DNA of 33,432 bases from a virus. The translations under genes were made by a program, and so were the position numbers. The DNA is taken from IMG/VR virus record IMGVR_UViG_3300037193_001365, positions 1-33,432 of that record; one strand, given 5' to 3'. The notes beneath the pieces were generated by a model, which had not been told where the DNA came from, ran no database searches, and saw only the letters and a program-made list of their open reading frames with translations. Below are positions 4,148-29,589 of this stretch, piece by piece. Within the stretch, counting starts at the first letter, position 1. Each line of letters opens with the position of its first letter.

Positions 4148-4794
4148 GATGAAGCGATCAATGTGGGTGAACTTAGGCGCAGTTCGCGTAGCGCAAATCC
4201 TGTCGACTGGATCTTCCAGTTACCGCGCACGAACTCAGGTGTCGACTCGAACATGACGGGCACATAGAAATCGCCACCCCATGTCGGCGTACCTACAGGC
4301 AGTGACGAATTCAAGGTCAGGAGCCCAGTGTCATAGTCGAGACTGTAATCGACACCTTCCGTCAGCAGGGTTCCGGCATCGGCAACAAGGATGGATCCCT
4401 GTTTTGGCTTTTGAATGATCCGTTGCTGCTGGAACATGAACTCGTCGTCTTCATAGAGTTTGACGAGCTGAAAATTTCCATCCTCGGTCTCCACGACTGG
4501 TTGATCCAACCGTGTAACGGCCGTACTTGGCGTATTTGTGCTGTTGAAATCGGTGTAGTCCTTAAACAGGAAGGAACCAGCCATTCCGCCTATTGCGTGC
4601 CAGAAGCGCGCGATGCGGTACATGTCATCATCCGTTCGATTGTCGATTGGAACCGCTGAAAATATATGCAGCGGGTAGTACCAGTTTCGGTTGCGACTGC
4701 GAACACCAGAACCTTTCTCGACAATTGTCACCGAATAGTTAGCTGCCTTCGTGAATCCGTATGAAGGACAGATTGGAAAAATTGGCCAGGGCAT
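4144..4794 (-). CDS. DUF2460 distal tail protein (GTA gp12-like)
   Basis: A 216-aa protein matching the DUF2460 / TIGR02217 family in length and in the internal block YPLHIFSAVP...DDDMYRIARFWHAIGG...GSFLFKDYTDF. Homologues form the distal tail ring between the tail tube and the hub. The ATG shares one base with the tape-measure stop (TGATG) and the 3' end overlaps the next gene by 4 bases. It belongs to an uninterrupted run of tail-tip genes. Confidence 0.9.
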   Translation of the reverse strand: MPWPIFPICPSYGFTKAANYSVTIVEKGSGVRSRNRNWYYPLHIFSAVPIDNRTDDDMYRIARFWHAIGGMAGSFLFKDYTDFNSTNTPSTAVTRLDQPVVETEDGNFQLVKLYEDDEFMFQQQRIIQKPKQGSILVADAGTLLTEGVDYSLDYDTGLLTLNSSLPVGTPTWGGDFYVPVMFESTPEFVRGNWKIQSTGFALRELRLSSPTLIASS

Positions 4795-8235: not shown

Positions 8236-8717
8236 CGGCTGCCCCCCTTCGATGCTTTCTTGACTGCAGCTTTGATGCGTTTTTGCAGCTCTGAGGTAAA
8301 GACCTGCAGAGCCTCGTTCTTCTTGCTCTCAAATGCGCGACGCATCCAGGCTTCCGCCTTGTGGGTCTCATCACCGAACTCGAGCACGCCGCCATACTTG
8401 TTCGCCGACTGACCGTTCGGAGCTCTGGCGCCGCGTTTCACTCGCGTGCGAAATACTTCGCCCTTGAAACCCGTCGGCCGCGCTCGGCTGACGATGATCG
8501 CCTTCTCAAGTGTCTTCGAATTGTCGGGTGTACTGCCATCCTTGTTAGGCTGGTCAACAATCAGCTGAACGTTCTCAATAGCCTGCTTCTGAAAAACGAC
8601 ACTTGCCTTTCGAGCCGCCGTTCTGACGGGTCCTCCGCGTTTCGAGACAATCTCAGGCGGCAGAGACTTGAGGGTCTGCAGAAGCCCCTCGAGTCCGTGT
8701 ACATATTTGAGTGCCAT
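8232..8717 (-). CDS. HK97 gp10-like head-tail/tail component
   Basis: A 161-aa protein from the ATG at 8717, which shares one base with the stop of the glycosyltransferase-like gene (TGATG). An 18-residue upstream extension is possible but unlikely given this junction. The sequence GLEGLLQTLKSLPPEI then RTAARKASVVFQKQAIENV, followed by YGGVLEFGDETHKAEAWMRRAFE, matches the HK97 gp10 family: an N-terminal helix and a C-terminal AxPWMRPAF-like motif. The family acts at the head-tail interface or in tail completion. Confidence 0.88.
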   Translation of the reverse strand: MALKYVHGLEGLLQTLKSLPPEIVSKRGGPVRTAARKASVVFQKQAIENVQLIVDQPNKDGSTPDNSKTLEKAIIVSRARPTGFKGEVFRTRVKRGARAPNGQSANKYGGVLEFGDETHKAEAWMRRAFESKKNEALQVFTSELQKRIKAAVKKASKGGSR

Positions 8718-9427
8718 CAGTGGTAGTGATCGAAGATCCAAGGCGATGCTTGAAGCGCCGTGTAGTCCCACGGATCCGGTTTTCCATGGAAGACCACAGC
8801 GCGCGCATTCTTTGGAAGCTTCGCGCCAAAGGTGCGGCAGAGGTGGTCGCGGTACGAATAGACACCGTCGTTCGCGCCCCAGCCGGCGAGCTTCATTCCG
8901 AGCTTGTGTGCGATCCAGGCTTGATCAGATCCCTTCATGCGCGACTGCAATGCTTCGCGTGGGGAAGTTGCGGGGTCGAAGTCATTCCACACGTGCGCGA
9001 ATTTCCCTGCGGTCATCATGAACATCGAAGCGCAGAACGGAATGGTTGGGTTTCCCGTGTGCCAGATCAGAAAGTCTTCCTTGCGATCAAACAGAGGATT
9101 CAGATCCGAGGTGAACACCATGTCCAGATCGAAACACACGAACCGATCGCCAGCGATCTCGCCGAACCAGTCAGAGAACACCTTGAGCCGTCGATAGCAG
9201 CTCGGGCCATTTGGCCATGATGGGTTCTGGATGTTGGCGTGGTCATCCCAGAGAGGCACATGTTCGATGCCCGCTTCAAGCCCTGAAGGATCATCAGTCA
9301 CACAGATGAATCGGTGCGGCTTCTGATAGTGCCGTTCGATCATGTGACGCGAAATGTTCACGTGTGTCGCGGTGAACGTTGATCGATAGCCCGGCTTCGA
9401 CCACTTGAACGTCACGAACGAAATCAC
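8717..9427 (-). CDS. Glycosyltransferase-like protein (GT-A type, DxD)
   Basis: A 236-aa protein beginning at a GTG that overlaps the stop of the GDPD gene (GTGA), with a GGAGA site eight bases upstream. An in-frame ATG 21 bases further upstream has no good ribosome-binding site. The N-terminus (VISFVTFKW, then a conserved tyrosine and RFICVTDD) looks like the start of a nucleotide-sugar GT-A fold. FVCFDLDMVFTSDLNPL carries a DxD motif (Asp100, Asp102) that would hold metal and UDP-sugar; GSDQAWI (about 166-172) and VVFHGKPDPWD (about 212-221) resemble the acceptor and C-terminal His motifs of GT8-like enzymes. Donor and acceptor are unknown. It is cytoplasmic, last in an enzyme cassette between head-tail joining genes. 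Confidence 0.7.
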   Translation of the reverse strand: MISFVTFKWSKPGYRSTFTATHVNISRHMIERHYQKPHRFICVTDDPSGLEAGIEHVPLWDDHANIQNPSWPNGPSCYRRLKVFSDWFGEIAGDRFVCFDLDMVFTSDLNPLFDRKEDFLIWHTGNPTIPFCASMFMMTAGKFAHVWNDFDPATSPREALQSRMKGSDQAWIAHKLGMKLAGWGANDGVYSYRDHLCRTFGAKLPKNARAVVFHGKPDPWDYTALQASPWIFDHYH

Positions 9428-10071
9428 TGAAGCATTCTCCGGACGCACATGGTTTCGAGCAGCTGGACACCATGCCGAATGAGCCGATGTGCTGTCTGCG
9501 CGTCAGCGACTTCGTATGAACACCAGATGGGGCCTGGCCAAACAGGTTCGTTGATATAGCGCTGATCGCAAAAGACGTATTCAGGTGCAAATGTGTCGAC
9601 TCGCCATTTTGAATCGGCCCCCATTCCGCCAATCACGAACCCGATCCGAAATCCAAGGTCGCGAGCCGCCAAGGCTGCTTCGTGATCGAACGAGATCACC
9701 ACGCAGTTTCCAGTCAGCTGCCGACATACATCGGCCACCACGCGCTCACGGCCGAAGGTCTGGAACGAGTCCTGCTTGATCTCGACAAATGCTGTTACGG
9801 CAGCATCACGCACGGCCGTAACCGCGTCCTTCAGTGAAGAGATGCCGAGTTCTTCCAAGCTTGAACTCGTGGTGCACACGGCATCGCGGTCTTTCCCGAA
9901 CAGTCTGCTGAGGTATGCATCGTGCAACAGCATCGGCACGCCGTCGCTGGACATTTGGACGTCGAATTCGACGTACTTCACGCCAAGGTCGATGGCCGAC
10001 CGAATGGCGTCCAGCGAGTTCTCGCGATGCTCGTAGGCGTTGCCTCGATGAGCAACGATGCGATCCCTCAT
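9424..10071 (-). CDS. Glycerophosphodiester phosphodiesterase (GDPD-like)
   Basis: A 215-aa protein starting at ATG 10071, which overlaps the previous stop (ATGA); the longer frame upstream is not needed. Signature residues of the GDPD TIM barrel are in order: VAHRG (His8, Arg9), REN with Glu17 and Asn18, VEFDVQMSSDGVPMLLHDAYL with Glu35, Asp37, His50 and Asp51, and FVEIKQD with Glu97 and Lys99. The catalytic His pair and metal ligands therefore look intact. The family hydrolyses glycerophosphodiesters to glycerol-3-phosphate and an alcohol. No signal peptide is present, so it acts in the cytoplasm or in the virion. It is small for GDPD, with little between the core motifs. Its real substrate here is unknown. 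Confidence 0.85.
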   Translation of the reverse strand: MRDRIVAHRGNAYEHRENSLDAIRSAIDLGVKYVEFDVQMSSDGVPMLLHDAYLSRLFGKDRDAVCTTSSSLEELGISSLKDAVTAVRDAAVTAFVEIKQDSFQTFGRERVVADVCRQLTGNCVVISFDHEAALAARDLGFRIGFVIGGMGADSKWRVDTFAPEYVFCDQRYINEPVWPGPIWCSYEVADAQTAHRLIRHGVQLLETMCVRRMLQ

Positions 10072-10304
10072 GGATAGAGCATTTGCCGCGCTTTCAGTTC
10101 GCACCGGTATACCTCGACACAATGATTCGGTTCCCAGAAGTAGATGCGGTCTACAACCGCGCCCAGGACGAAGCCAACGATGCGCTGAACTGGCGTTCCT
10201 GTTTCTTTCCAGCGACCAAGCAATCCCGAGATAGTCTCGCGCGGCAGTGCCCAGGCGAAGAACACGAGAGAGCACAGGAGCATGTTCGTGGCCACATAGA
10301 TCAC
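10068..10304 (-). CDS. Small membrane protein of unknown function
   Basis: The frame is open from 10469, but its first half overlaps the ATP-grasp gene by 150 bases, so a later start is more likely. The GTG at 10304 gives 78 aa and an AGGTGGGCAGG stretch lies upstream; an ATG seven codons further on is an alternative. The product has a hydrophobic segment (LLCSLVFFAWAL, about 9-20) and a second weaker one (IVGFVLGAVV, about 41-52), then a charged C-terminus. It overlaps the GDPD start by 4 bases. It could anchor the cassette's enzymes or be an inner-membrane lysis or exclusion protein; I cannot choose. I recognise no family. Confidence 0.5.
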   Translation of the reverse strand: MIYVATNMLLCSLVFFAWALPRETISGLLGRWKETGTPVQRIVGFVLGAVVDRIYFWEPNHCVEVYRCELKARQMLYP

Positions 10305-10318
10305 GAAGACCTGCCCAC

Positions 10319-11227
10319 CTATGACTTTGACCAGACGCCTGCCTGCACTTCCTCCATCATCACGTCGAACATCTGCAGCCATTTCTTGTTCGTTCCGAAG
10401 ATCGGTGCCGAGTTGCACCTCCCCGGACTTGGCCAAGGCCAAGCCAAGCTCGTCTCGAGAAGCCACCATTTATCGTTCTCCTGCAGTACATCGACCGCGC
10501 ACCACTTCGTGTTCGCCACATCGAAGAATCGGTCACAGAATGCGAACAGTGCCTCCACCTGCTCGCCCATCTTCATGACAGGCTCCACGTTGCCCGTCTG
10601 CGCCACCGCTCGATCGGGATAGCAGTACCGCATGAACGCCGCTCGTTTGGTGCCGATCGCGTTCACTCGCCATGTAACCTTGTGAGGAATGAATTGCTGT
10701 AGCAGCACGTATCCATGCTGCAACGAGCATGCATCCCTCTCGACACCTGGACCGTGAGAGCAATGCTTGACCTTGATGCCCGGTCCGAATAGCTCTCGAA
10801 CATGAGACAACGCCTCATGCCTATTCTTGAGGATGCGAACGTTGATCGAGCTCGCGCCCACGTCTGCCTTGGACACCAATGGATACTGGTTCCAGTCACT
10901 GACAAAAATAAGTGCGGCGCCCTCATCGTTGAAGCGCCACGTTGGCGGCATCCATGTCTTCCATCGATCGAACTGCGCACTCTTGTTTTCGTAAACCCTG
11001 ACCTGCACTTCGTCCTGAATCATGGTCAGGCGTGCATCCATCAGATCGAAGTCGCGCTGATTCCTGATCAGTGCTGATGGTTCAGCGTGGCATCGCAGAA
11101 AGCCATAGCCGTTCTCCTCCACCTCTTCGCCTCGAAGAATTCTCTTTCCTTCGAATCCATGTCGATTCGCAGCATCGATGATGGCCGCATACCAGACGTG
11201 TCTTTCGTCAAGAACGTAGAACTTCAT
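10319..11227 (-). CDS. ATP-grasp-like enzyme
   Basis: A 302-aa protein. The motif YPLVSKADVGASSINV (about 115-130, Lys120) is the nucleotide-binding lysine plus glycine-rich loop of ATP-grasp ligases. Next come LLQQFIP (about 175-181, the hinge glutamine-rich strand), a conserved Arg187, CAVDVL (Asp245) and WWLLETSLAW (Glu258), which fit the metal-binding acidic residues. ATP-grasp enzymes join an activated carboxylate (acyl-phosphate) to an amine or thiol; RimK-, D-Ala-D-Ala ligase- and glycan-peptide-type members exist and I cannot tell which this is. The last catalytic asparagine may be replaced (ETSLAW rather than E.N), so activity is not certain. It overlaps the previous gene by 20 bases. 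Confidence 0.7.
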   Translation of the reverse strand: MKFYVLDERHVWYAAIIDAANRHGFEGKRILRGEEVEENGYGFLRCHAEPSALIRNQRDFDLMDARLTMIQDEVQVRVYENKSAQFDRWKTWMPPTWRFNDEGAALIFVSDWNQYPLVSKADVGASSINVRILKNRHEALSHVRELFGPGIKVKHCSHGPGVERDACSLQHGYVLLQQFIPHKVTWRVNAIGTKRAAFMRYCYPDRAVAQTGNVEPVMKMGEQVEALFAFCDRFFDVANTKWCAVDVLQENDKWWLLETSLAWPWPSPGRCNSAPIFGTNKKWLQMFDVMMEEVQAGVWSKS

Positions 11228-11738
11228 CGAGGCTCGCCATCGGAAACTGAGTCAATGCGGATCCCGGTGTGCAGTTGGTCACCTTGCATCCAGTCCACGT
11301 CCTAAATTGCGCGATGTGATGCTTGAACCTAGCCGGTGCCGTATTCGCCAACGGCTTGGGATGCGGTCCGAAGTAATGCGTGCCATGCATGTCGAAACCG
11401 AGCAGCACGATATGCGTCGCGGCAAGATAGTCCTGAGCAACTCGCATCCCCTGCAGCCCGCTGTTGCATCCGCTCGGATAGCGCTGAGTGATCGTCAGGT
11501 ATTCAAGTCCCGGCATCTGACAGCCGGTGAATTTGCGGCCCGCAAATCTGTACGCCTCACTGTGTTGATTCCACCAGGTGCGATCGTGACTCACGAGCGC
11601 CTCTGCCCACGGCATGAGCTTGTAGTTGTCGGAGATCGCGACCGCTTGGCAGCGGCCTTCCTCGTGAAACTGACGGACGCGGTCGACTTGCTGGCTCGTC
11701 AACGACTGGCCAGTTGCCACCACGCACACCAGCGTCAT
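11208..11738 (-). CDS. MptE/DUF115-like Rossmann-type protein
   Basis: A 176-aa protein. The N-terminal VVATGQSLTSQQVDRVR, then AVAISDNYKLMPWAEALVSHD and a conserved TWW, resembles a Rossmann-fold group seen in phages and in sugar-modification clusters. The middle has YLAATHIVLLGFDMHG, typical of that group. I infer kinship to the 6-hydroxymethylpterin pyrophosphokinase/MAF-type fold, but the function is unknown. The ATG shares a base with the head-tail adaptor stop (TGATG). It is the first of five enzyme-like genes inserted in the head-tail joining region. Confidence 0.55.
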   Translation of the reverse strand: MTLVCVVATGQSLTSQQVDRVRQFHEEGRCQAVAISDNYKLMPWAEALVSHDRTWWNQHSEAYRFAGRKFTGCQMPGLEYLTITQRYPSGCNSGLQGMRVAQDYLAATHIVLLGFDMHGTHYFGPHPKPLANTAPARFKHHIAQFRTWTGCKVTNCTPGSALTQFPMASLDEVLRS

Positions 11739-12088: not shown

Positions 12089-12447
12089 GCGAGTGCAGGA
12101 TCTCTCAAGGGTCCGAGGATGGCGCGCACCGGTGCGGGCAACCGCCCATCAGCAAACATTGCCTCAGGATCTCCGTCGCGGTTCTTCCAGAGGATGCCGA
12201 CCAGATATCGCGTGGCCTGCTTCACTTCGGGTTTCACATCGTCGGTGTAGACAACCTCTCCAGAGCTGTCGAGCACGATGGCGCCGCTCGAATCCACCTC
12301 AGGCTCATACGGCGACGAAGACTTCAGATGGTTGGAAATGATGCGAGTTGCAGCGAGCGCGAAGAACTCCGCCTCTTCGTCGCTCGTATCGACATCGTCG
12401 CCGCGGACCTGTGCGCGAACGTCGTCCACTGTGATGAACGGATCCAT
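12085..12447 (-). CDS. Head-tail connector protein (HK97 gp6-like)
   Basis: A 120-aa protein of the gp6/YqbG-like connector family: FITVDDVRAQVRGDD then EEAEFFALAATRIISNHL near the start, and KQATRYLVGILWKNRDGDPEA followed by LPAPVRAILGPLRDP at the end. Family members form the ring attached to the portal. The insert between the two halves contains repeated acidic VLDSSGEVVY-like residues, a little longer than in many homologues. The ATG shares one base with the stop of the collagen-like gene (TGATG), with an AGGGG site upstream. Confidence 0.85.
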   Translation of the reverse strand: MDPFITVDDVRAQVRGDDVDTSDEEAEFFALAATRIISNHLKSSSPYEPEVDSSGAIVLDSSGEVVYTDDVKPEVKQATRYLVGILWKNRDGDPEAMFADGRLPAPVRAILGPLRDPALA

Positions 12448-13385
12448 CAGCGTACCCCTGCCGGACGCTCAGCATCCTTGCCGTCCCTGCCCTTCTTCAC
12501 AGCGAGACGCCACGAGTCGTCCTCGCCGGGCTTGGCAGTCGTCTCGCGCTGAGCGATCCAATAGCTGCCCTGGAAGGTCACGCCGTCGCCGCGCTCGTAC
12601 GTGGCGCCCTGCTTGTGCACCCCGCATTCGAGTAGCACTGGGACCTTAAAGGTGAATTCTTTCTGCCTATCTGCTTGAGTGAACACGAGCGTGAACGATC
12701 GCTTGCCGTCGTACTGCACTTCGAAGTCATCGAAGCCGAGTCCGTCACGCCCGTCGATGCCGTCACGACCATCTTTACCATCCTTTGGTTTTTCGATGCG
12801 TGACATGAACTGATGCAATAGATCCTGAGCTCTGCGTTCGAAGTCCAAGGCCCAGCCAGCTTGCTCTTTCGAATACATGTCGAGCCACATCCGGCGAACA
12901 TCCTCGAGCATGACCGATTTTCCGTCGATGCCGTCGCGACCATCGCGGCCGTCTTTTCCGTCAATACCGCGCTCGCCTTTTTCGCCGCGTTCACCGGCAG
13001 GGCCTGGTTCGCCACGTTCACCTTTCGCGCCTGGCTCGCCGGTGTCGCCCTTTTCACCTTTTTCTCCCCGCTTGCCTGCCGGCCCTGCTTCGCCAGTATC
13101 TCCCTTTTCGCCCTTGTCTCCTTTATCGCCCTTTTCGCCAGTTTCGCCGCGTTCGCCTTTTTCTCCCTTCTCACCGCGCTCGCCCGGTGCTCCGTCTTTT
13201 CCATCGATACCGTCGCGACCATCTTTGCCATCGCGACCATCGGCACCGTTCTTTCCATCGACACCATTGATGCCGTCCTTGCCGGCCGGGATCGCATCGA
13301 TGCGCTTGCTCAGTTCATCAATGGCGGGCCGCACATAATCCGCTACGTGCCGCATGATGGTGTCTGCAAAGCTCTTCAGGTCCAT
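12447..13385 (-). CDS. Collagen-like repeat virion protein
   Basis: A 312-aa protein. Residues 1-34 form an amphipathic helix (DLKSFADTIMRHVADYV); residues 35-157 are about 41 uninterrupted Gly-X-Y triplets, rich in Lys, Asp, Glu and Arg with few prolines. A helical spacer follows, then a second short triplet block near 203-217. The C-terminus (YERGDGVTFQGSYWIAQRETTAKPGEDDSWRLAVKKGRDGKD-like region) resembles small carbohydrate-binding modules found in phage fibres. Such repeats normally form a trimeric rod. The gene lies between portal and connector and shares one base with each neighbour, so its dose is tied to theirs. The role is probably a head fibre or vertex appendage; this is inference. 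Confidence 0.85.
   Translation of the reverse strand: MDLKSFADTIMRHVADYVRPAIDELSKRIDAIPAGKDGINGVDGKNGADGRDGKDGRDGIDGKDGAPGERGEKGEKGERGETGEKGDKGDKGEKGDTGEAGPAGKRGEKGEKGDTGEPGAKGERGEPGPAGERGEKGERGIDGKDGRDGRDGIDGKSVMLEDVRRMWLDMYSKEQAGWALDFERRAQDLLHQFMSRIEKPKDGKDGRDGIDGRDGLGFDDFEVQYDGKRSFTLVFTQADRQKEFTFKVPVLLECGVHKQGATYERGDGVTFQGSYWIAQRETTAKPGEDDSWRLAVKKGRDGKDAERPAGVR
12915..13283 (-). repeat. Low-complexity Gly-X-Y-coding repeat
   Basis: The DNA is a string of nine-base, G+C-rich units of the GGC-GAA-AAA type, with short internal perfect repeats such as GGCAAAGATGGTCGCGACGG-like units. It encodes the main collagen-like section. Confidence 0.85.
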
Positions 13386-17164: not shown

Positions 17165-18877
17165 TCAGCCGACGAAGAACATCTGATACTTTTTCTTCCG
17201 AGGTTTCGGATTCATCGACATCAGCGCGACTGCGTTGAATGTCGCCATGAGTGGATCGATCTTCGCCGAGCCAGAGATCTGCTTTGTGATGATGATGGCG
17301 TTGCCGCGAGGTTCGACCTTCGCATTGCTCACTGACCAGGCCATCATGGGTCGCGCACCGTGCACCATCTCTTTGCCGGCCAGCTTTCGTTCCGTCGTCT
17401 TGATCGTTCCGACCAACTTCCAGCCCTGCGGAATTCCGATGATTCGTTTCTCATCGATCTTCTTCAGTGCCAGTGCATCAAGCACATCACCGATGCCCGC
17501 AGGATCCACGCCGATGTTGTCTAGGAGATCGGCCTTCTCGATTCGATCCACGATGTCGGCGAGCTCGTCTACATCATCGCCAATGTGATCGACGATCGTC
17601 AGATCGCCTTCCTTCTTGAACTGCAAGAATCGATCTGCTTCCGCTTTGCGGCGCTGAAGCACGATCTCGTGTGCCCAAGCGTGGGCCCAGTGAAGCCAGC
17701 GTCCGGTTCCTTCCTCGCGCCCGATTGCTGCGGCGCCTAGCAAGTCATCGAGGCCACCGCCGTCGATGCCGAAGGTCACGACATCACAGCGCTTGAGCAT
17801 TTCCTCCAGCGTGACTGTCGCGTCACCGCACTGCTGCCAGTAATCAGCGCCGACCCATCGATCATGTCGAAGCGCAATGCCGATCTCGACGTTGAGGTGC
17901 TGTGATGCCCATGCGCGCAGTTCGCCCTCGCCTTTGGACTCGGCATCCTCCATGTCCTCTATGAGTCGAGGGATTGAGATCGATCTTCCAGCGTTCGGCG
18001 TGACCAGCCGCCAGTTCTCTGGGTTACGCCATGGCTTGTCCGGCGCGAGTTGCATCTCATCTGGAAACTCGTAGAGCACGGGCAGCATCGCGCCTTGGCG
18101 CTTGCCATCGCGAATCTCACGGGCCTTCGTGAGCTCTTCCTTGAACACCCCTGAGGGCGGTTCTTCGCTCTGCGTCGTGATGAATGCCAGGAAGCCTTCT
18201 GGGAATGGGTGCATACCGCCGCGCAACTGGCGAAGTGCACTCGATGCCTTGCTCATCTTCGAGATCACGTGGAGCTCATCGATGAGCGAGTAGACCGGCT
18301 TCTGCCCAGTCATCACCGACGGATCGAACGTCATGATCTCGAGTTCAGCCTTCGTTTCGCGATGCACGATCGTTTTGATGTGATCGCGCACGTGAAGCTT
18401 TCGCTCGAGCACCGGATCCAATGCGATCGCTCCGCGTGCTGCATCAAAGGCGAGCTGCGCTACGTCTTGCACCGGCGCCGTCATGATCAATGACGCGTGC
18501 GGCCGCTCATTCAGCAACAACGCGGTCAGCATTAACAGCGCGCCATTCGTGGTCTTCGAATTCTTCTTCGGTACCAGCAGGAACAGTTCGCGAATCATCC
18601 GCTGCCGCGTGCGTTCGTCTAGCGCACCGAACAGCGCTCGCACGATGTCGCGGAACCAGTCGCCACCAGCCTCCGCCATCGTCGGCGTACCAGGCACGTC
18701 CGCGAGCCGCAGTTTGTTGAAGACTGCGACCGCCTGATTGCCGCGCTCAAGATTTAGCGGCAGATCCGGTACCAGCGATCGACCATCTTTCAGTCGCTCC
18801 CGCCAATCAGGGCAGGAGAGATTCCAGCGATCTACTGGAGGCTCGACGATGACGGTCTCGGCAGAATGTCTTCCCAC
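17165..18877 (-). CDS. Terminase large subunit (HK97-type)
   Basis: A 570-aa protein with a GTG start behind GAAGGGC, overlapping the TerS end by 46 bases. The packaging ATPase shows LFLLVPKKNSKTT (about 98-110) as a variant Walker A and VYSLIDELH (about 195-203, Asp200-Glu201) as Walker B, plus AFITTQSEEP as the likely coupling motif. The C-terminal nuclease shows VTFGIDGGGLDDLLG (Asp372) and later VDPAGIGDVLDAL and IDPLMATFNAVALM. The protein pumps DNA into the prohead through the portal and cuts concatemers. Confidence 0.93.
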   Translation of the reverse strand: MGRHSAETVIVEPPVDRWNLSCPDWRERLKDGRSLVPDLPLNLERGNQAVAVFNKLRLADVPGTPTMAEAGGDWFRDIVRALFGALDERTRQRMIRELFLLVPKKNSKTTNGALLMLTALLLNERPHASLIMTAPVQDVAQLAFDAARGAIALDPVLERKLHVRDHIKTIVHRETKAELEIMTFDPSVMTGQKPVYSLIDELHVISKMSKASSALRQLRGGMHPFPEGFLAFITTQSEEPPSGVFKEELTKAREIRDGKRQGAMLPVLYEFPDEMQLAPDKPWRNPENWRLVTPNAGRSISIPRLIEDMEDAESKGEGELRAWASQHLNVEIGIALRHDRWVGADYWQQCGDATVTLEEMLKRCDVVTFGIDGGGLDDLLGAAAIGREEGTGRWLHWAHAWAHEIVLQRRKAEADRFLQFKKEGDLTIVDHIGDDVDELADIVDRIEKADLLDNIGVDPAGIGDVLDALALKKIDEKRIIGIPQGWKLVGTIKTTERKLAGKEMVHGARPMMAWSVSNAKVEPRGNAIIITKQISGSAKIDPLMATFNAVALMSMNPKPRKKKYQMFFVG

Positions 18878-21143: not shown

Positions 21144-22046
21144 TCAGTTGATGCGTTTTGAACGAATGCGCGAAACGACTCGCAATGAGCGAACGCGCGG
21201 TCCCACGTGGAGCGTGGCCTTTGCCGGCGGCAGAATCGTGGCTGCGCCGCCGATGCCCAGGAATGCCGCGCCGAACGACATTCCGGCATTGATTGATGAT
21301 CGTGTCTGCGCTGCTGCTGCAGTTACAGCCGACAAACTCGTGAGTCCAGAGAGCGAGCCGATCGCTGCCGCAACGATCGCGAATAATGCATTGGTGGCTA
21401 TGCCGGCTTGCACGAGAACGCTGTTGCCTGTTGCGTAAGCGAACACCGCGTCGAGCGTGACTCCGCCAGACAGCTGACCCATCGTTATCGCGATAGCGCC
21501 CACGGCATCGAGCATGCTGGCCTGTGCCGAAACAAGCGCCAACGCCTGTGCGGCACTGATGAATTGTGCAGACAGCGACGTGCCCGAGTTCAGTGCGCCA
21601 ATCAAAGCGCCGGAAAGTTCGCCGGTGAATTCCGCGCCAAGTGATCCCGCTGCCGAGAATTGCGCAGCTGATTGCGCACTGGCTGCCCACTGCTCACTAG
21701 CCTGCACGCCAGCCAATACGGCTGCGATCGCACTCGAGATGGCATTGGCAACTACGGCAGCAGAGATCTGCGCAGAGATCGAGCCAGCTGCCCCAGCGAG
21801 TCCACCATCAGCATCGCCGGCACCAAGACCGGCAGTGATCGACGCGATGGCTGCGGCTTGGGCAGACATCGTCATGCCGGCACCAATGCTGGCCGTGAGA
21901 CTCGCCGCCGATGTGGCAACGCCGAGGAAAGAAGCGCCTAGGCCAACTGCCGCGTCAAATGAACCTGAGTCGGAGCCAGCATCTTCAGCCCACGCGGTTC
22001 CTGCCCACGCGCCAGGCGCCCACGCGCCAGGTGCCCATGCGCTCAC
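21144..22046 (-). CDS. Alanine-rich structural protein with repeated AWAPG start
   Basis: A 300-aa protein beginning MSAWAPGAWAPGAWAGTAW, then almost entirely Ala, Ser, Gly, with long stretches such as SAAVVANAISSAIAAVLAG and a basic end (RVRSLRVVSRIRSKRIN). The composition suits long helices with small residues at every contact, or a fibre. Two or three hydrophobic stretches could cross a membrane, but the Ala/Ser/Gly bias makes this uncertain. The ATG shares a base with the previous stop (TGATG). Family unknown; neighbours suggest a virion role. Confidence 0.6.
   Translation of the reverse strand: MSAWAPGAWAPGAWAGTAWAEDAGSDSGSFDAAVGLGASFLGVATSAASLTASIGAGMTMSAQAAAIASITAGLGAGDADGGLAGAAGSISAQISAAVVANAISSAIAAVLAGVQASEQWAASAQSAAQFSAAGSLGAEFTGELSGALIGALNSGTSLSAQFISAAQALALVSAQASMLDAVGAIAITMGQLSGGVTLDAVFAYATGNSVLVQAGIATNALFAIVAAAIGSLSGLTSLSAVTAAAAQTRSSINAGMSFGAAFLGIGGAATILPPAKATLHVGPRVRSLRVVSRIRSKRIN
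21988..22042 (-). repeat. 15-bp tandem repeat coding for AWAPG
   Basis: Units of 15 bp (gcccacgcgccaggc and near copies on the plus strand) begin at 21988, 22003, 22018 and 22033; the second and third differ at one base. They encode the repeated N-terminus of the Ala-rich protein. Confidence 0.85.
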
Positions 22047-22840
22047 TATGGCGCTCCGCCCCAGTTGGTATCTGTGGCGCCGTTGGTCTGCACAGGATCA
22101 CCGATCACCTGAACGATGTTCGCTGGAATCGGCGAGCTCGTGCTGGCAGGTGGTGTCGGCGTGATCTTATACATGATCGTGCCAGTGGGAGTTGTAGTCC
22201 ACGGAGGATCTATGGTCGCAGTGTCGGTGCTGCTCACATAGTCTGTGATGACACGGGATTGACCCACACCTGAAGATCCGCCAGTGATCCAGATAGTGGC
22301 GCCAACAATTTCGTCATTGGCGAAGCTCGCCGCCGATCGCAGTTGCAGCGTCGTGCTCGTTGCCGCCTGTGCGGTTCCTTGATCGATGATCTGATTCCAA
22401 GGCACCGCACCTGCAGTGTCGTCGTACGCGGTCTCGAGATTGTCGGCCGCAGTGCTATCGCCGGAAATCTGAGCCACGTTCACTGGCGCATTGGCCACGT
22501 ATCCGGGTGCCGAAGCAGCAAACAACGCGTCATAAACTGCTTCCTCGAGCACGACAAAAGTTGCAAACACTGGAAGGGCACCGGACACGACCACAGACAC
22601 GAAGATCTCGCCAACAGTGGCGGTATCCGTTGCGTCGAACGTGATGCCGTAGACACCATTGGCTCGATGCGTGCCACCGCCAGAATTCTTGTTGGCGCTC
22701 GCTGCGCCATTGATCATCAGTTTGATGTCGGTGTTCGCGATCGTCAGTCCCGTCTCGGCGGTCTTGAAATCGGTGTCATCCAGGAATGGACCGATCGACC
22801 TGCTTTGCGAAGCTGTCGATTGCCGAAGATACGAGTGCAT
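22046..22840 (-). CDS. Phage fibre-like protein
   Basis: A 264-aa protein. The N-terminus (GPFLDDTDFKTAETGLTIANTDIKLMINGA then GTHRANGVYGITFDATDTATVGEIFVSVV) is typical of beta-rich N-terminal domains of phage tail or receptor-binding proteins. The middle contains SAASFANDEIVGATIWITGGSSGVGQSRVITDYV, a motif repeated in fibre genes. The end is Pro/Thr-rich. The start lies three bases after the stop of the next upstream gene. Confidence 0.7.
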   Translation of the reverse strand: MHSYLRQSTASQSRSIGPFLDDTDFKTAETGLTIANTDIKLMINGAASANKNSGGGTHRANGVYGITFDATDTATVGEIFVSVVVSGALPVFATFVVLEEAVYDALFAASAPGYVANAPVNVAQISGDSTAADNLETAYDDTAGAVPWNQIIDQGTAQAATSTTLQLRSAASFANDEIVGATIWITGGSSGVGQSRVITDYVSSTDTATIDPPWTTTPTGTIMYKITPTPPASTSSPIPANIVQVIGDPVQTNGATDTNWGGAP

Positions 22841-22843
22841 GTG

Positions 22844-24745
22844 TTAGTGCAACATCTGTGAAGCGTAATAGCTCATTGGTTTTGCGGTCGATCCGCCTCC
22901 CGACATCGTCAACTTCGGCGTCACGCTGTATGTGTCCAGGGCGTTCGATCCTGCGTAGATGCGGAACTCGTAGTAGTCACCATTGGCTGCTGGAGCCTGC
23001 GTCTGCAGTGACCACTCCAGTTCCGTGTATCCATCCGCTGCGATGTCGATGGAATCCGATCCGTTCTCATCGTCCCATCGACGACCGACAGTGAAGTCAC
23101 TCGTTGTCTTCCCGCTCGGCGCAGTCAGCCGATCTGTCGTTGCTTCACCGCCTGCTGCGATGTTGCTTGATGGGCTGACGTAGATCTCGTTCGTGACCGC
23201 CGCCCTGCGAGCCCTGATCCGCAGAAATGCGGTCGGTCCACTGCCCGCAGCACTGATGGTGTATGCCCACGTAGGAGCGACGTTTGGTGTTCCGGAAACG
23301 CTGTTCACCGGTACCGTGTAGACGATATGGCGATGATCGTTGCCACCTGTGCATGCCGTGCTTGCACGGTTGGTGATCGTGCCGAACGTGACGCCAGTCG
23401 CGCTTAACGCAACAGATGAAAGCGTGCCTGTATCGATATTCTGCGCGGTCGCAACAAGGACGAGATCACCAGCGAGATACGTCTGGTTTGATCCTGCGGT
23501 GGCACTATAGGAAATGTCGTTTGACGCATCCGCGCCACTCGCGAATGATTCTTCGATGACATGATCCTGATCGGGCGGCTCTACGCGAACGATGCTTCCG
23601 CGAATTGTGTTCGTCGTTGTGCCTGCCAGCGTCACAGTGATCGTGCCGCTCTCAGATCCTGAGACTGAAGCCTTGCGGAAGATCGCAACGCGACGCGTGC
23701 CCGTGTCGACGCCGAACGTTCCCGTACCGCCCTCGAGCGAACCGATGAGATTCCAACCTCCACCGGTGACTGCGAACTCCGTGTCTGCTGTGCTGCTGCG
23801 CCCTGTCACGATGAGGTAAAGCGCAGTTCTCGATGTCGCTCCTGTCATCGACGGGTAATTGACATTGTGCGATGTCGTGCTCGTGGCGCTCGTGCCTGTG
23901 CCTATCGCGTTGTACGAGGTCGTCCCAATGTCCTCGCTGACCGAAGCACCGACGGGTACCGGCACATATCCGCCACTGCCGTTCTTCTGATAGCGCAGCG
24001 TGTATGCCGCCGACGCGGTATCGAGCACGGAATTGATCAGCACACGTAGCAGGCGCGACGTGCCCACTGCCACCGTGTCATCCGTGTCCTGATTCTGACT
24101 CCAGGCATGACTCGCCTCGTCCGCATCATCAATGCCGAAGCGAAAGCCTTCCTGATCGCGTGTGGGCTGCGGTCCAGCACTGGCCCATGCCGCAGCCTGC
24201 AAGCACACCGTCTGCGGTGCTGTTGCCTGCTCGGTGAACTGCACCGTAAGCGTGGTGGCCGAATCCGCCTGATAATCGATGATGATCAGGAACGGATTGA
24301 ACGTCCCGCCCGCGCCTGTCACAGTCGTGGAGATCGGGCTTGCTGAGCTATCGCCCAGCGAGATATTTAGGTTGTGCGTACTGGTGTTGTACGGGCTAAC
24401 CAGAATCCACGCGCGCCGCGGTGATGTCGTCGCCGGCAGGCTTAGTGCAAAGCCATTGCCAGATGCGAATGAACTGTTGAAAGCACAAAGCGCCGACGAC
24501 CCACTCGCCGTCGGCGTGCCGTTCGTCCAAGAGATGGTGCGGACGTCTGTTGCACTAGAACCCGCCACCGTCCCTACATAGGCATTCGAAATCGTCGAGC
24601 CGCCGCCATTGCGACGCTGCGCCGGTGTGACTAGATCAGTCGTCCACAGCGCCCAATCATCTGGCGCGCTCCCGCTGTTGATCGTGTCGATGTCAACCGG
24701 CGTGGTCGCATCGGCAACCGCTTGGACAAGCGTTAATGAACCCAT
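22844..24745 (-). CDS. Large beta-rich adhesin/fibre-like protein
   Basis: A 633-aa protein, very rich in Thr, Ser, Gly, Ala and Val and low in Lys. It shows several repeated immunoglobulin/jelly-roll-like strands, for example TLTVQFTEQAT, GTITVTLAGTTTNTIRGSIVRV, VALSATGVTFGTITN and a C-terminal DYYEFRIYAGSNALDTYSVTPKL. Only scattered cysteines (around 86, 180 and 475) and no signal peptide. Its position immediately after the SGNH gene suggests an adhesin or spike for binding. No family was recognised. The ATG abuts the previous stop. Confidence 0.7.
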   Translation of the reverse strand: MGSLTLVQAVADATTPVDIDTINSGSAPDDWALWTTDLVTPAQRRNGGGSTISNAYVGTVAGSSATDVRTISWTNGTPTASGSSALCAFNSSFASGNGFALSLPATTSPRRAWILVSPYNTSTHNLNISLGDSSASPISTTVTGAGGTFNPFLIIIDYQADSATTLTVQFTEQATAPQTVCLQAAAWASAGPQPTRDQEGFRFGIDDADEASHAWSQNQDTDDTVAVGTSRLLRVLINSVLDTASAAYTLRYQKNGSGGYVPVPVGASVSEDIGTTSYNAIGTGTSATSTTSHNVNYPSMTGATSRTALYLIVTGRSSTADTEFAVTGGGWNLIGSLEGGTGTFGVDTGTRRVAIFRKASVSGSESGTITVTLAGTTTNTIRGSIVRVEPPDQDHVIEESFASGADASNDISYSATAGSNQTYLAGDLVLVATAQNIDTGTLSSVALSATGVTFGTITNRASTACTGGNDHRHIVYTVPVNSVSGTPNVAPTWAYTISAAGSGPTAFLRIRARRAAVTNEIYVSPSSNIAAGGEATTDRLTAPSGKTTSDFTVGRRWDDENGSDSIDIAADGYTELEWSLQTQAPAANGDYYEFRIYAGSNALDTYSVTPKLTMSGGGSTAKPMSYYASQMLH

Positions 24746-25843
24746 CTAGATGCGACTTGCGTAAAAGTCAGCCTTAGCGGTTCGCAGCGCTGCATATCCA
24801 GCATCGGTTGCATGCACTTGATCACCTGAGATGTAGCTAGGCGTGTCTACGAAGAACTGGTATTCATCGAACCCAGCAAAGCATCCCGGTGTGCCACTCA
24901 CGATGTTGGCAATCGCCGTGTTGTAAGCAGCGAGATTCGCGTGCGGAGTACTCGCTGGCGTGTCACCGATCGTCTCGCAAAAGACTTTTTCGACACCCGC
25001 CGAAAGCAATGCATTGACCAAGCTCTGATAATTGTTGGTCCACGTGCTCCCATGTGCCGCGGCCAATGCGTCATTGATTCCGAGGTTCACGGTCGCCCGC
25101 TTGAAGCCGGGCATCGCGGTCATCCATTCAGAGATCAGCGGGACGATGTTGGCGACATTCGCTCCACTCATACCTGCGCAAATCGTTGGCACGTGAAACC
25201 CCGTCGTTGGCTGCATCAGGTTGCCTAGCGCATCGCGCGCTGTGCTGCCGCCGTGTGGATTGCCGTGACGCAGTCCAAACCATGTCCGCGAGTCGCCCAC
25301 GTGAAAAATGTCTCGCTGGCCGGCACGCACGTCCCAAAGATCGAGCTTCAACTGGATGTTTGAGCCAGACGAGCTCGAAATGTCCATCCCAATCCAGTTG
25401 TAACCGCTCGCCGAGAAGGAATGCTTCCGCGACTGATAGCTGTTCGACGAGACGGTCGCGATTGTCGTAATGCCGCTTGAGGGCACCGACGAACCGCCAC
25501 CAGCCTGTGTGCTGCCCTTGATGGTGTAGGCAGTAGGCAAATTGGTCTGGGCACCGCCGGTGCCGGTCTTGTTTTCCAGGTCGAAGTACAGCGTGGTCGT
25601 ATCGACGCCTACTTCGTTGTACCAGTACAAGGCCATCGACGCTTTTTGAGCATCGGTCAAACTCGAAATGTCGATCCACACCGAGCCATTGGTGCCAGTG
25701 ATCTGCAACAGGCTGTTGTAGTTGGAACTCGTAGCGTTCGCGGCTGTGCCGCTGCTTGATACAACAGGAAGGCTCCGTGACACCAACGCGAAGTCTGTGG
25801 CGAGAGGTGCAGGCAGAGCGCATCGTGGCGCGCGAAGAATCAT
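24746..25843 (-). CDS. SGNH/GDSL-type hydrolase
   Basis: A 365-aa protein. Residues 1-170 are a beta-rich accessory region. The SGNH domain shows its blocks in order: VGDSRTWF (Gly183-Asp184-Ser185, catalytic Ser185), ICAGMSG (Gly224), LGINDAL (Gly255, Asn257) and GDQVHATDAGY (Asp341, His344). All four invariant residues are present, so the enzyme should be active. The family removes acyl groups (acetyl) from sugars, xylan-like polymers or other esters. No signal peptide, unlike its upstream neighbours, so it is likely virion-bound. Deacetylating a host polysaccharide is the simplest role. Confidence 0.88.
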   Translation of the reverse strand: MILRAPRCALPAPLATDFALVSRSLPVVSSSGTAANATSSNYNSLLQITGTNGSVWIDISSLTDAQKASMALYWYNEVGVDTTTLYFDLENKTGTGGAQTNLPTAYTIKGSTQAGGGSSVPSSGITTIATVSSNSYQSRKHSFSASGYNWIGMDISSSSGSNIQLKLDLWDVRAGQRDIFHVGDSRTWFGLRHGNPHGGSTARDALGNLMQPTTGFHVPTICAGMSGANVANIVPLISEWMTAMPGFKRATVNLGINDALAAAHGSTWTNNYQSLVNALLSAGVEKVFCETIGDTPASTPHANLAAYNTAIANIVSGTPGCFAGFDEYQFFVDTPSYISGDQVHATDAGYAALRTAKADFYASRI

Positions 25844-25846
25844 TCG

Positions 25847-27223
25847 TCAGGGATGTGCGATCAGCCAGTCTCGGAAGACCTTGCCGTATCCATCAGTGGG
25901 CTCACCGACCGCATTCTTGATCAGCACGTTACTGCAGGCGGCACCCGGTGTGTACCAGGTGTTCCATGACCAGCCCAGCACGGAGACATTGCGCGCATCC
26001 GCCCACGTGATCATGTTCGTCACCTCTGGCGAATTAAGTGTGCCATCGCTACAGCGATCACCGAGCTCCGTGATCACGATCGGAATTCCGGCATCGAGGA
26101 TGCCTTGCGCTTGCGTGAAGATCTGTGGCGCGAAGTTCGGCTGCGCAGCAGCCGGCGTGCCGAAGGTGGAACCGTAGGCGGGATACGCATGCCACACAGC
26201 GCCGAGTTGATTCAGCCGATCGCTCGGCTTGTTCACCAGCCAGCCATCGAGCGCGGCCGCGTAGTTCAAGCCACCGACGAGCACGACGTTCGTGGCGCCT
26301 GTCGCGCGCACGGCATCCACCATTGCTTGCATGCTCGCGATGTTCCAGGTGTAGGTCACGTTGACCTGGCCCTGCAGTCCGTTTTCGATGAATCCGGTGA
26401 ACGGCCCGCCGCCGGTACCCTTCATCAAGTATTGCCATGCGTTGCCACTGAAGTACTGCGTTTGAGAGACGAACGGTTCATTGAACAGTTCGAAGATCAC
26501 CGCCGGCTGATCCTTGAACGCAGTTGCGATTGAGTTCCAGAACGCGAGCGAGTTGTCAGCATCCGCCATTGTGTTCTGGATCATCGGGCAATACGTGCCA
26601 GGCGCCGACATGTGCAGATCGAGAATCACATACATGCCGGATGCAATCGCATCGGCGACCGCCTTCCGAACGGTCGCTTGATAGTTGCTGCCGGGGTCAG
26701 CCTTGCGCAGTGCGCCCGACTTCGCGTCTTTGCAGGTCTGTCCCAACCACGAAGCTTGGTTCAGCGGAAATCTGACGGCGTTCGCCTTCCATGCTCTGAT
26801 GGCAGCGAGGTTTGGCACCTGTCCGCCCCAGGGATCCGAAGCGCTCCAATTCTGGATCGCCACGAACTCGAGTCCTGAGACATTCACCCCACGCAACTGC
26901 AGCGTCTTACCGCTGCCATCGATAAGTTTGTTGCCGCTGACCGAGACACCGAACACAGATGCCGGCGGCGGTGTCGTTGGATTTGGCGAGTACTTCGCAA
27001 TCACTTGTCGACGTTCGCCGCGGCAATCGTATGTCACGGTACCGGATGTGAGCTTCTCGGCCTGCGCTCGCTTGATGTTATCCGCTCGACAGGCATCCCA
27101 ACTCGGGCTCGTACCGATGTTCGAATTGTTGCGGTACTGATAGACGGACGTTTGCTCGGTGATGGTGACGGCCGAGAGTGCCGGGGCACACACCAGCAGA
27201 AGCGCAAGACAGAGTTTGATCAT
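25847..27223 (-). CDS. Exported GH5-family glycoside hydrolase (cellulase-like)
   Basis: A 458-aa protein from ATG 27223, supported by the signal peptide (MIKLCLALLLVCAPALSA) directly after it; the longer frame lacks one. Next comes a two-cysteine module (about 18-78, Cys45 and Cys67), a Thr/Pro linker, and the GH5 barrel: LQLRGVNVSG, NAVRFPLN (Arg151), LDLHMS (His204), IFELFNEP (acid/base Glu249), VWHAYPAY (His345, Tyr347), VITELGD (nucleophile Glu386) and GWSWNTW (Trp near 428). All catalytic residues are present. GH5 enzymes cut beta-1,4-glucans, mannans and similar. The signal peptide means periplasmic or outside release. Confidence 0.93.
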   Translation of the reverse strand: MIKLCLALLLVCAPALSAVTITEQTSVYQYRNNSNIGTSPSWDACRADNIKRAQAEKLTSGTVTYDCRGERRQVIAKYSPNPTTPPPASVFGVSVSGNKLIDGSGKTLQLRGVNVSGLEFVAIQNWSASDPWGGQVPNLAAIRAWKANAVRFPLNQASWLGQTCKDAKSGALRKADPGSNYQATVRKAVADAIASGMYVILDLHMSAPGTYCPMIQNTMADADNSLAFWNSIATAFKDQPAVIFELFNEPFVSQTQYFSGNAWQYLMKGTGGGPFTGFIENGLQGQVNVTYTWNIASMQAMVDAVRATGATNVVLVGGLNYAAALDGWLVNKPSDRLNQLGAVWHAYPAYGSTFGTPAAAQPNFAPQIFTQAQGILDAGIPIVITELGDRCSDGTLNSPEVTNMITWADARNVSVLGWSWNTWYTPGAACSNVLIKNAVGEPTDGYGKVFRDWLIAHP

Positions 27224-27224
27224 G

Positions 27225-29432
27225 TCACTGGATCGAAAGATTCGAAGGTTTACGACACAGCGAAGCATCGAATGTGGCCAACTGCGCCGGCATGTCGACC
27301 TTCTCGCCCTCTCCGATGATGTCCCACGCGCGTGTCGTCGCGATCGGGGTGTTCAGGATCGTGTGGTACAGCTGCGATGACCGGAACGGCAGGCCGTCGC
27401 GTGACGGCGAGGCGTACATCTCCCACTCGAGCGCTGAGTGATAGAGCAGATCGCCGTACGTGACCATGCCGTACTTCATCGTGAGCGGCTTATCACTCAG
27501 GTCGACGCAGAAGCCCTGGCGACCATTGACGAAGAAGACGATGCGATCGGGGCGCACGAAGACGTCATAGTGCGTGAGCGGCGCTACCTGATCGAACGGC
27601 TCGAGCAGCGGTCCGACGATCTTGCCGGCAGCGTCTGTCTTGTTGCGAAAGCTGCCGAGTTGAACGATGCCCTTCGCGTAGCCGGCGGGATGGATCTGAA
27701 CTCGGATCATTCCGCTCGTACGCACGCGTCCGCTGACCGGATACTCAGGCACGCCCTCTTCAGCGATCGACAAGCACTCTTTCGCCTTCGCGTTCTGTGC
27801 CTTTGCTTCGCTCACAGCGCCAAGCTGCGGAGCACCGATGCTCGGGTTGTCTGCGTAGAGCCCAGCGGTGCCCGCGGTGACGAAGGAGGTCTCGTAGAAG
27901 ATCGGGCGAATCTTGTACTCGCGAGTCACTGGATCTTGCAGTTCATCGCGCGTCGCGCCTCCGCAGAGGGTCCACGACCAATAGCGACGTTGCGTCGACT
28001 CGGTGTTGATGCGGAACATCGAGTGGACGTACTTCTGCGCGTCGAGTTCTTGCGGCACAACCTTCGATGAGGCGAAGCCGATGGAACCGCCGATGTCTTG
28101 GCCCGCATCGCCGAACGAGGTGTAGAGACGGCCGTGGCGCTGGAAGACCTGGAAGCCCAACAAACCTTTCGGGCTGTAGGCACCATTGACGATGCCGCTC
28201 TGGCCATCGGCGCGTTGCAGGTAGCGTCCCCAGAACTGCCACTGACCAGGGATCGAGAACTTCGGAGCGCCCGGCAGATTCGAGCCAGAGTAGTCGGGGT
28301 TGCCGACGTACGTTGCTGGATCCACGACCAGATCCGTCGTGAAGTTGTCCTCGATCGCATTTGCGCCGACGTCGATGATTGGTGCGAGCAACGCCTCATC
28401 GACAGACGGCAGCGTCAATTCGAAGGTGCTCCGAGCGATGACGACAGGATCAGTTGGGACGATTGTGCTGTTCACTGGCACGGGAACCCCCATCGGCGCC
28501 GTCATGCGATCGGCCCACGAGCTCGCCGCGCCCTGTCCATTCACAATCTCATTGCCATACGTGCTGCGGACAGTGTTGAACGAGACAAACTTCGCGTAGT
28601 GCTGACCCGTCGACGGATACGAATTGGGATCGAGCGCGTGGAAGTTTCCCTGCGTGATGGTCGCGTCCGTGTGCGCCGGGATGCCGGTGAACGGACACGG
28701 AGTCGCGATCGCTTCGAGCACCACGGTGTACTTGCCCGCCACGGTAAGGCCAGGAAGCTCCACGGCCTGCATCAGTTCGCGCGTTGAACTGCCATTGCTC
28801 ACGGCCGACGCAAAGCCGTGCTGACGGAATCCAGCGCATGCGATCACTGCGCTACGCGGCTGCTTGCCGTTTGGCGTGTCCGCGAAAGTCACACCCTCTC
28901 GAACAACATATGCTCGATAGTCACCCGCCCCAGCGACATTGCCGAAGTAGAAAACCGCAGCATCGCGTCTGGCCAAGACCTGCACGCCAGGCATGGTCGG
29001 CAGGTTCGACAACAGCGCTCTGGGCGTGGCGGTCGGTGTCGCCGGAATGCCGTGTACCGGGTTGTGCGCGAACGGGTCGAGCACTGTCAGCAGGCCGTTC
29101 ACCGGTGTGCTCGACGGCTGGCCGAGCGGCGCCTCCGTCGGTGTCGGGGTGGGCGTTGGTGTTGGCGTAGGCGTAGGAGTCGGATCCGCCGCATACGTCG
29201 CAATGACCTGCCGCTTTTCGCTCTGGCAGGTGTACGTCACCGTGCCGCTCGTTGCTGTCGCTGCCTTCGCTTTCTCGATCGCAGCGCTGCGGCACGCTTC
29301 CCAACTTGGATAGGTGCCGATACTCGAGGTGCCCTTCAGCAGATTGATGCTCGTTGCATCTTTGAGCGTGACGGCAGCATTGGCCGCGCCAATACATACC
29401 GCCAACGCAAGCGCAGTGCGGCGAAGGGACAT
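27225..29432 (-). CDS. Exported 735-aa protein with two-cysteine module, unknown function
   Basis: The protein starts at ATG 29432 with AGAGGT upstream and a signal peptide (MSLRRTALALAVCIGAANAA). Residues about 20-82 match the module of the GH5 protein: INLLKGTSSIGTYPSWEACRSAAIEKA...TSGTVTYTCQSEKRQVIATYAADP, with Cys47 and Cys69. A (TP)n linker (84-99) follows. The 600-residue body has an immunoglobulin-like early part and a C-terminal region (HYDVFVRPDRIVFFVNGRQ, YGMVTYGDLLYHSALEWEMY) like a concanavalin-type beta sandwich. No catalytic motif is recognised. I infer a polysaccharide-binding or -degrading enzyme because of the shared module and the GH5 next to it. Confidence 0.8.
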   Translation of the reverse strand: MSLRRTALALAVCIGAANAAVTLKDATSINLLKGTSSIGTYPSWEACRSAAIEKAKAATATSGTVTYTCQSEKRQVIATYAADPTPTPTPTPTPTPTPTEAPLGQPSSTPVNGLLTVLDPFAHNPVHGIPATPTATPRALLSNLPTMPGVQVLARRDAAVFYFGNVAGAGDYRAYVVREGVTFADTPNGKQPRSAVIACAGFRQHGFASAVSNGSSTRELMQAVELPGLTVAGKYTVVLEAIATPCPFTGIPAHTDATITQGNFHALDPNSYPSTGQHYAKFVSFNTVRSTYGNEIVNGQGAASSWADRMTAPMGVPVPVNSTIVPTDPVVIARSTFELTLPSVDEALLAPIIDVGANAIEDNFTTDLVVDPATYVGNPDYSGSNLPGAPKFSIPGQWQFWGRYLQRADGQSGIVNGAYSPKGLLGFQVFQRHGRLYTSFGDAGQDIGGSIGFASSKVVPQELDAQKYVHSMFRINTESTQRRYWSWTLCGGATRDELQDPVTREYKIRPIFYETSFVTAGTAGLYADNPSIGAPQLGAVSEAKAQNAKAKECLSIAEEGVPEYPVSGRVRTSGMIRVQIHPAGYAKGIVQLGSFRNKTDAAGKIVGPLLEPFDQVAPLTHYDVFVRPDRIVFFVNGRQGFCVDLSDKPLTMKYGMVTYGDLLYHSALEWEMYASPSRDGLPFRSSQLYHTILNTPIATTRAWDIIGEGEKVDMPAQLATFDASLCRKPSNLSIQ
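29136..29183 (-). repeat. Thr-Pro linker hexanucleotide repeat
   Basis: About eight copies of a six-base unit (GGNGTN on the plus strand) encode PTPTPTPTPTPTPTPT. It separates the two-cysteine module from the body of the 735-aa protein. Confidence 0.85.
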
Positions 29433-29448: not shown

Positions 29449-29475
29449 AAAAACGCCCCGCGCTGAGACGGGGCG
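29449..29475 (-). terminator. Intrinsic terminator-like hairpin before 735-aa gene
   Basis: CGCCCCG pairs with CGGGGCG around an eight-base loop, followed by TTTTTC on the minus strand. It ends 16 bases before the start codon of the 735-aa gene. Confidence 0.88.
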
Positions 29476-29561: not shown

Positions 29562-29589
29562 AAAAAGCCCCGCTCGGTGGCGGGGCTTT
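29562..29589 (-). terminator. Intrinsic terminator after the small-gene block
   Basis: A 9-bp stem (AAAGCCCCG/CGGGGCTTT) with an 8-base loop, ending in GGGGCTTTTTC on the minus strand. It is the first of two hairpins in the 262-base gap between the 170-aa gene and the 735-aa gene. Confidence 0.88.

Follow-up and report, generated by a model that had tools for sequence, protein, structure and literature searches.

Active GH5 glycoside hydrolases encoded by phages are already known (PMC6786970, PMC10465536). An uncultured virus from Stordalen Mire, a permafrost peatland, carries a GH5 endomannanase that has been shown to act on beta-1,4-mannan (PMC6786970). Rumen viruses carry GH5 and GH9 cellulases, of which the GH5 enzyme lies between viral genes and is active on carboxymethylcellulose (PMC10465536). 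The endomannanase resembles the GH5 protein analyzed here in that its gene belongs to an uncultured virus and has a viral genomic context, but we met no mention there of a neighbor with a shared module or of an esterase. Both enzymes are likened to the present one by description, not by sequence; neither main text mentions a signal peptide, and that of the endomannanase does not mention secretion.

The same layout as in the present protein, with signal peptide, beta-sandwich binding domain, P/T linker and GH5 domain, is found in the CBM2-GH5 enzymes of Streptomyces and Kitasatospora (L085-L087, L101, L104, L105). In the GH5 part these actinobacterial enzymes are 33-41% identical to it. However, they carry a CBM2-like domain (named by sequence appearance) where the phage protein has a 65-aa module, they are chromosomal, and in the tree described below they do not group with the phage enzymes.

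Phage depolymerases are usually regarded as virion parts or as bystanders freed by lysis. At the level of titles and opening lines of abstracts, no phage depolymerase with a signal peptide was found in the literature, nor did we meet an exported pair of proteins sharing a module, a coupled or fused SGNH esterase, or repeated gain and loss of signal peptides within a phage GH5 group.

The GH5 protein, its signal peptide and its N-terminal module

The window, which is the whole IMG/VR virus record of 33,432 bases, encodes a GH5 protein of 458 aa on its minus strand (27223-25847); the plus-strand translation of the same interval contains stops. The long open reading frame extends from 27268 to 25847 (473 aa) and has an ATG at 27223, which the stop of the upstream gene precedes by one base. 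Pfam PF00150 (Cellulase) matches residues 117-436 of the 473-aa frame with E = 1.1e-40 and 140.3 bits (cut-off 23.5). Besides the catalytic pair (Table 1), the conserved GH5 residues R150, H204, H345, Y347 and W420 are present. At the position aligned to E386, the deposited sequences of the PDB matches 5a8m and 5a8o differ, one having E and the other Q, which is what a nucleophile mutant should show. The protein was modelled by AlphaFold with a mean pLDDT of 67.8 and a pTM of 0.71. In a Foldseek search with the GH5 part of this middling-confidence model, the best matches were GH5 endoglucanases (E 6.9e-15), and the (beta/alpha)8 barrel was recovered. The SdGluc5_26A beta-glucanase and the CjCel5C endoglucanase (PDB 5a94, 8bn7) have the fold and the catalytic Glu pair in common with the window GH5, but identity to these and other solved structures is 18-20%, which is too low to transfer a subfamily (GH5_2, GH5_26 or others) or a substrate.

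All 37 window proteins were examined for signal peptides by n-, h- and c-regions together with a hydrophobicity test, and only those of GH5 and its upstream neighbor p820 were convincing. After the ATG at 27223 the GH5 N-terminus reads MIKLCLALLLVCAPALSA, with predicted cleavage before VTITEQ, which is a typical type-I pattern; it has the highest hydrophobicity among the 37 proteins (3.18 on the Kyte-Doolittle scale, 10 residues). The tail-tip protein also scored high, but owes this to a stretch rich in glycine and lacks a charged n-region. Both MIKLCLALLLVCAPALSA and the p820 N-terminus MSLRRTALALAVCIGAANA have a positive n-region, a hydrophobic core and small residues before the cleavage site, as for Sec type-I substrates, and neither contains a lipobox. 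The GH5 protein thereby departs from virion depolymerases of the tailspike or fiber-enzyme type, for which the absence of a signal peptide is a mark.

A linker (PNPTTPPPAS) separates the GH5 domain from the N-terminal module. The aligned front ends of GH5 and p820 are 46% identical with the two Cys kept, and the module has the same secondary structure in the AlphaFold models of both proteins (pLDDT about 65-72). p820 is named after its open frame of 820 aa, and its 735 aa are counted from the ATG; its AlphaFold model (pLDDT 33) gave no usable structure. We found no relatives of p820 in Pfam, PHROG, PDB, INPHARED, IMG/VR (exact-peptide scan) or 294 sampled genomes, and the module alone had no match in IMG/VR, INPHARED, PDB or Pfam. 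By analogy with the actinobacterial enzymes, in which CBM2 takes its place, our guess is that the module probably anchors GH5 and p820, once exported, to some polymer or surface. The sequence-only reading had claimed a complete set of GH5 catalytic residues behind a cleavable signal peptide and an accessory module. Both glutamates and the conserved R, H, H, Y and W were indeed found, the signal peptide looks cleavable by its features, and the module gained in substance by recurring in p820. That reading gave no strand, and it took in neither the upstream gene with the shared exported front end, nor the coupled SGNH esterase, nor the active phage GH5 enzymes already in print. Its description is borne out and its interpretation supported in part; the loosening of a cellulose-type biofilm or plant polymer and the benefit to a lysogen that it proposed would be possible roles.

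The gene run and its phage setting

Nearly all likely genes of the window are on the minus strand, with replication-type genes at high coordinates, then the cassette around GH5, and then terminase, protease, capsid, portal and tail genes toward base 1. The genes p820, GH5, SGNH, p633, p264 and p300 form a tightly packed run upstream of the terminase genes, with gaps, head to tail, of 1, 3, 0, 3 and -1 nt, and this packing indicates that GH5 is an integral member of a run of phage genes. Contamination with host DNA was ruled out by the phage genes on both sides and by the packed run. Of two markers used in PMC6786970, viral hallmarks flanking the gene are present, with a RuvC-like resolvase upstream and TerL and portal downstream. 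For the other, the absence of other microbial metabolic genes, a GDPD gene is found at 9424-10275 among the tail and head genes. Two terminator-like hairpins in tandem part the cassette from the upstream genes, so that read-through or antitermination would be needed for its transcription past them, and no promoter-like site was found on the cassette strand. No integrase or repressor was recognized in the contig, which is incomplete. The idea of a cassette exported in its entirety in every case was rejected, since SGNH, p633 and p264 of the window have no signal peptide.

Table 1. Features of the GH5 cassette and its surroundings, in window coordinates.
Feature	Position	Strand	Description	Basis
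Terminator-like hairpin	29564..29589	-	strong, the farther of the two from the p820 ATG	z -3.9
Terminator-like hairpin	29454..29475	-	strong, ends about 20 nt before the p820 ATG	z -4.9
p820	27225..29432	-	735 aa; signal peptide MSLRRTALALAVCIGAANA, same module as GH5, (PT)n linker, C-terminal part of about 600 aa without assignment	sequence comparison
GH5 glycoside hydrolase	25847..27223	-	458 aa; signal peptide 1-18, module ~19-80, P/T linker ~81-90, GH5 domain ~100-440	Pfam PF00150, residues, fold
GH5 signal peptide	27170..27223	-	MIKLCLALLLVCAPALSA	n/h/c regions, hydrophobicity
N-terminal module of GH5	26978..27169	-	60-65 aa; two conserved Cys, predicted beta-alpha-beta-beta	46% identity to p820 module
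Catalytic acid/base E249	26477..26479	-	LFNEP	conserved in 25/25 phage members, though NEP is part of the search pattern
Catalytic nucleophile E386	26066..26068	-	TELG	conserved in 23/25 phage members; outside the search pattern
SGNH/GDSL esterase	24746..25843	-	365 aa, without signal peptide; GDS, GIND and DQVH blocks	Pfam PF13472 3.7e-12
p633	22844..24745	-	fiber-like protein; homologue adjoins p264 in L114	homology
p264	22046..22840	-	widespread in environmental phages; L005 homologue with signal peptide	homology
p300	21144..22046	-	final gene of the packed run	gene coordinates
Terminase large subunit (TerL)	17165..18877	-	downstream of the cassette; phage context	TerL relatives

For TerL relatives 80 loci were fetched, of which 34 had at least 2.5 kb upstream of TerL, and exported-looking genes lay upstream of TerL in a few of those 34. 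In L005, with 78% TerL identity, the p264 homologue has a signal peptide (MKTFRIVASVVLALLLASPVYA). In a related phage (L012:6051-8507) a protein of 819 aa that has a signal peptide and matches PD40 and HZS_alpha (hydrazine-synthase-alpha-like) is encoded upstream of the terminase. For p264 relatives, too, 80 loci were collected. L130 has, before its terminase genes (229-6094), four consecutive genes that all have signal peptides, and its terminase differs from that of the window. These genes encode a 516-aa protein that Pfam does not match, one of 721 aa in which GH42 matches weakly (E 0.0017, below the cut-off), one of 254 aa that by eye is like part of p633, and p264. Among 105 proteins scanned from the genes upstream of p264, LamG lectin domains were found in eight, GDSL esterases in two and GH16 in one, which would suit a glycan-contact cassette.

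Other genes of the window were also assigned. At the early end of the contig (31382-32206, minus strand) a homologue of the CBASS inhibitor Acb3 is encoded (Pfam PF25187, E 1.5e-71), a counter-defense gene. The interval between head-connector and tail genes (8717-11738, minus strand) contains four odd genes, glycosyltransferase-like (by eye), glycerophosphodiester phosphodiesterase (Pfam 4e-20), ATP-grasp-like (by eye) and one without assignment, which possibly serve virion or surface modification. A collagen-like G-X-Y repeat protein (12447-13385, minus strand) adjoins the portal gene, and collagen repeats also precede the GH5 of L190.

GH5 relatives in phages and their ties to SGNH esterases

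An exact-peptide scan of IMG/VR with P0001 returned nothing, and degenerate GH5 patterns were needed, which gave 39 contigs; scanning with the alignment of the phage GH5 proteins (A6) recovered the identical set. INPHARED contained only two relatives of the window GH5, at 22-23% identity, and none for the GH5 of L193 or L205, and PHROGs has no family for the window GH5. Several of the contigs encode hallmark genes near GH5 and are therefore from real phages: terminase small subunit and primase (L190), TerL (L191), helicase (L193), ejection protein (L207), tail sheath (L212), head closure (L216) and major head protein (L221). In a quick maximum-likelihood tree the window GH5 joined 25 phage rows with an SH-aLRT of 89 (96 in a 24-row subset), and 14 bacterial rows, including the secreted CBM2-like GH5 enzymes, fell apart from this group. 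The bacterial rows came from exact-peptide hits in GTDB genomes and from two phyla, so bacterial group members may be missed. Judged by these sequences, with bacterial sampling outside the Proteobacteria, the lineage may be largely confined to phages. The nearest relatives found are phage contigs at 45 and 42% identity, with bacteria up to 41%, the degenerate pattern having been applied to phage contigs only. R, N, the acid/base E, H and Y are kept in all 25 phage members and the nucleophile in 23, NEP being in the search pattern.

Five relatives (L210, L212, L214, L216, L218) have Ala in place of the LDLH-motif His, and in two of them, L210 and L212, Thr stands where the nucleophile is expected, which is alignment-dependent. 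It is possible that these five are non-catalytic binding proteins.

Within the phage group, signal peptides, judged by hand, are present in L190, L198, L207, L217 and L219 and lacking in L191-L196, L199, L203-L206, L208, L210-L212, L214, L216, L218 and L221; L197 lies outside the group. On the tree of all labelled viral rows the signal-peptide state changes at least six times, and the sisters L207 (with signal peptide) and L208 (without) have related front modules. The sequence-only reading had called the gene phage-borne, had held that virion enzymes usually lack signal peptides and had suggested a search for GH5 genes in related phages. The phage genes on both sides bear out the first of these, the second fits the few signal-peptide-less relatives that are located among tail or head genes, not all members having been placed, and the search led to the 39 contigs.

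Some relatives combine GH5 and SGNH in one protein. In L205 and L213 (7320-10790), which probably represent the same virus, an SGNH domain (E 4e-26 to the window SGNH) interrupts the GH5 domain after the NEP motif and ahead of the block conserved next, so that Pfam finds GH5 in two stretches. In L221 GH5 is succeeded on its C-terminal side by an SGNH-like stretch (E 4e-6 to the window SGNH), in which the Pfam scan reported no GDSL domain, and then by a region resembling a propeller (Pfam Sortilin-Vps10 6e-14). The window encodes GH5 and SGNH as separate neighboring genes with 3 nt between them. Fusion elsewhere and close packing here point to a common substrate, and GH5 and the esterase probably act on one acetylated beta-glycan.

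Proposed export of the GH5 protein and its possible role

In our judgment it is an even call that GH5 is a Sec-exported and active beta-glycan endo-hydrolase which, together with p820 and SGNH, loosens polysaccharide around the host. GH5 would be made with p820 and the SGNH esterase from one tightly packed run, and the infected cell would export GH5 and p820 through Sec. Among solved structures, endo-beta-1,4-glucanases and a beta-glucanase come closest to GH5, in line with a putative endo-hydrolase activity. The module would then retain GH5 and p820 on polymer or surface, where GH5 may cut and the esterase may deacetylate the same acetylated beta-glycan, for example a cellulose-type exopolysaccharide. 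Loosening of the matrix around the host could favor spread of progeny or let virions reach further hosts. Because SGNH of the window lacks a signal peptide, it could encounter GH5 only once the cell has lysed or as a part of the virion. Signal peptides are likewise missing from the fused GH5-SGNH proteins, and the fused gene of L205 lies just after a baseplate-wedge-like gene (E 1.4e-5), which counts against this reading.

Alternatively, GH5 may be associated with the virion as a fiber- or spike-type enzyme, with its hydrophobic N-terminus unused for export or used in membrane-linked assembly. The coupled downstream genes, which include p633, p264 and further on a Gp77-like fiber adaptor, would fit such a role, as would the LamG, GH16, GDSL and beta-helix proteins that neighbor p264 elsewhere and the close GH5 relatives without signal peptides, some of them in tail or head clusters. 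However, virions of tailed phages are assembled in the cytoplasm, and two adjacent genes have good signal peptides with cleavage sites, of which none is convincing elsewhere in the window, so that a virion enzyme seems rather unlikely. An exported GH5 could also, with p820, serve the living host as an auxiliary or lysogenic-conversion gene, either in nutrition from plant or soil beta-glycans or in remodelling of its own exopolysaccharide. The gene run continues into genes for fiber-like and packaging proteins, which suggests that it is expressed late, and together with the lack of a recognized integrase, repressor or promoter-like site this makes a service to the host unlikely, even if the architecture of GH5 is of bacterial type, phage GH5 auxiliary genes have precedents (PMC6786970, PMC10465536) and the hairpins set the cassette apart. 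Some TerL relatives, moreover, may be prophages, as their IMG numbers appear to be those of isolate genomes. It is very improbable that GH5 is a recently captured host gene without a role in the phage: secreted GH5 enzymes of this kind do occur in several bacterial genomes, but the nearest relatives are on phage contigs (with the bacterial genomes searched without the degenerate pattern), the protein groups with the 25 phage rows and the catalytic residues are conserved across deep divergence.

If the proposed export and loosening of polysaccharide are true, an operon that exports a glycanase and a partner with the same module, with an esterase coupled to them, would show certain phages to condition the vicinity of their infected cell ahead of release or during it. 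Auxiliary glycoside hydrolases of soil and rumen viruses would then have a possible purpose besides feeding the host. From the GH5-SGNH forms, fused or adjacent, an acetylated substrate is predicted, which is testable.

The distribution of signal peptides raises a wider possibility, which we put forward tentatively and with some doubt. A largely phage-confined GH5 lineage may have switched repeatedly between virion-borne forms, without signal peptide and fused to fiber-type modules or SGNH, and Sec-exported forms. The window would then hold an exported form within a multi-gene secretion cassette, in which a new shared module sends two proteins to the same extracellular place.

The genes of L207 and L219 are two different signal-peptide GH5 genes on one contig of 70 kb (IMGVR_UViG_3300037340_000026), and near the second of them a beta-1,4-glycosyltransferase moron is encoded (phrog_13126, E 6.9e-97).
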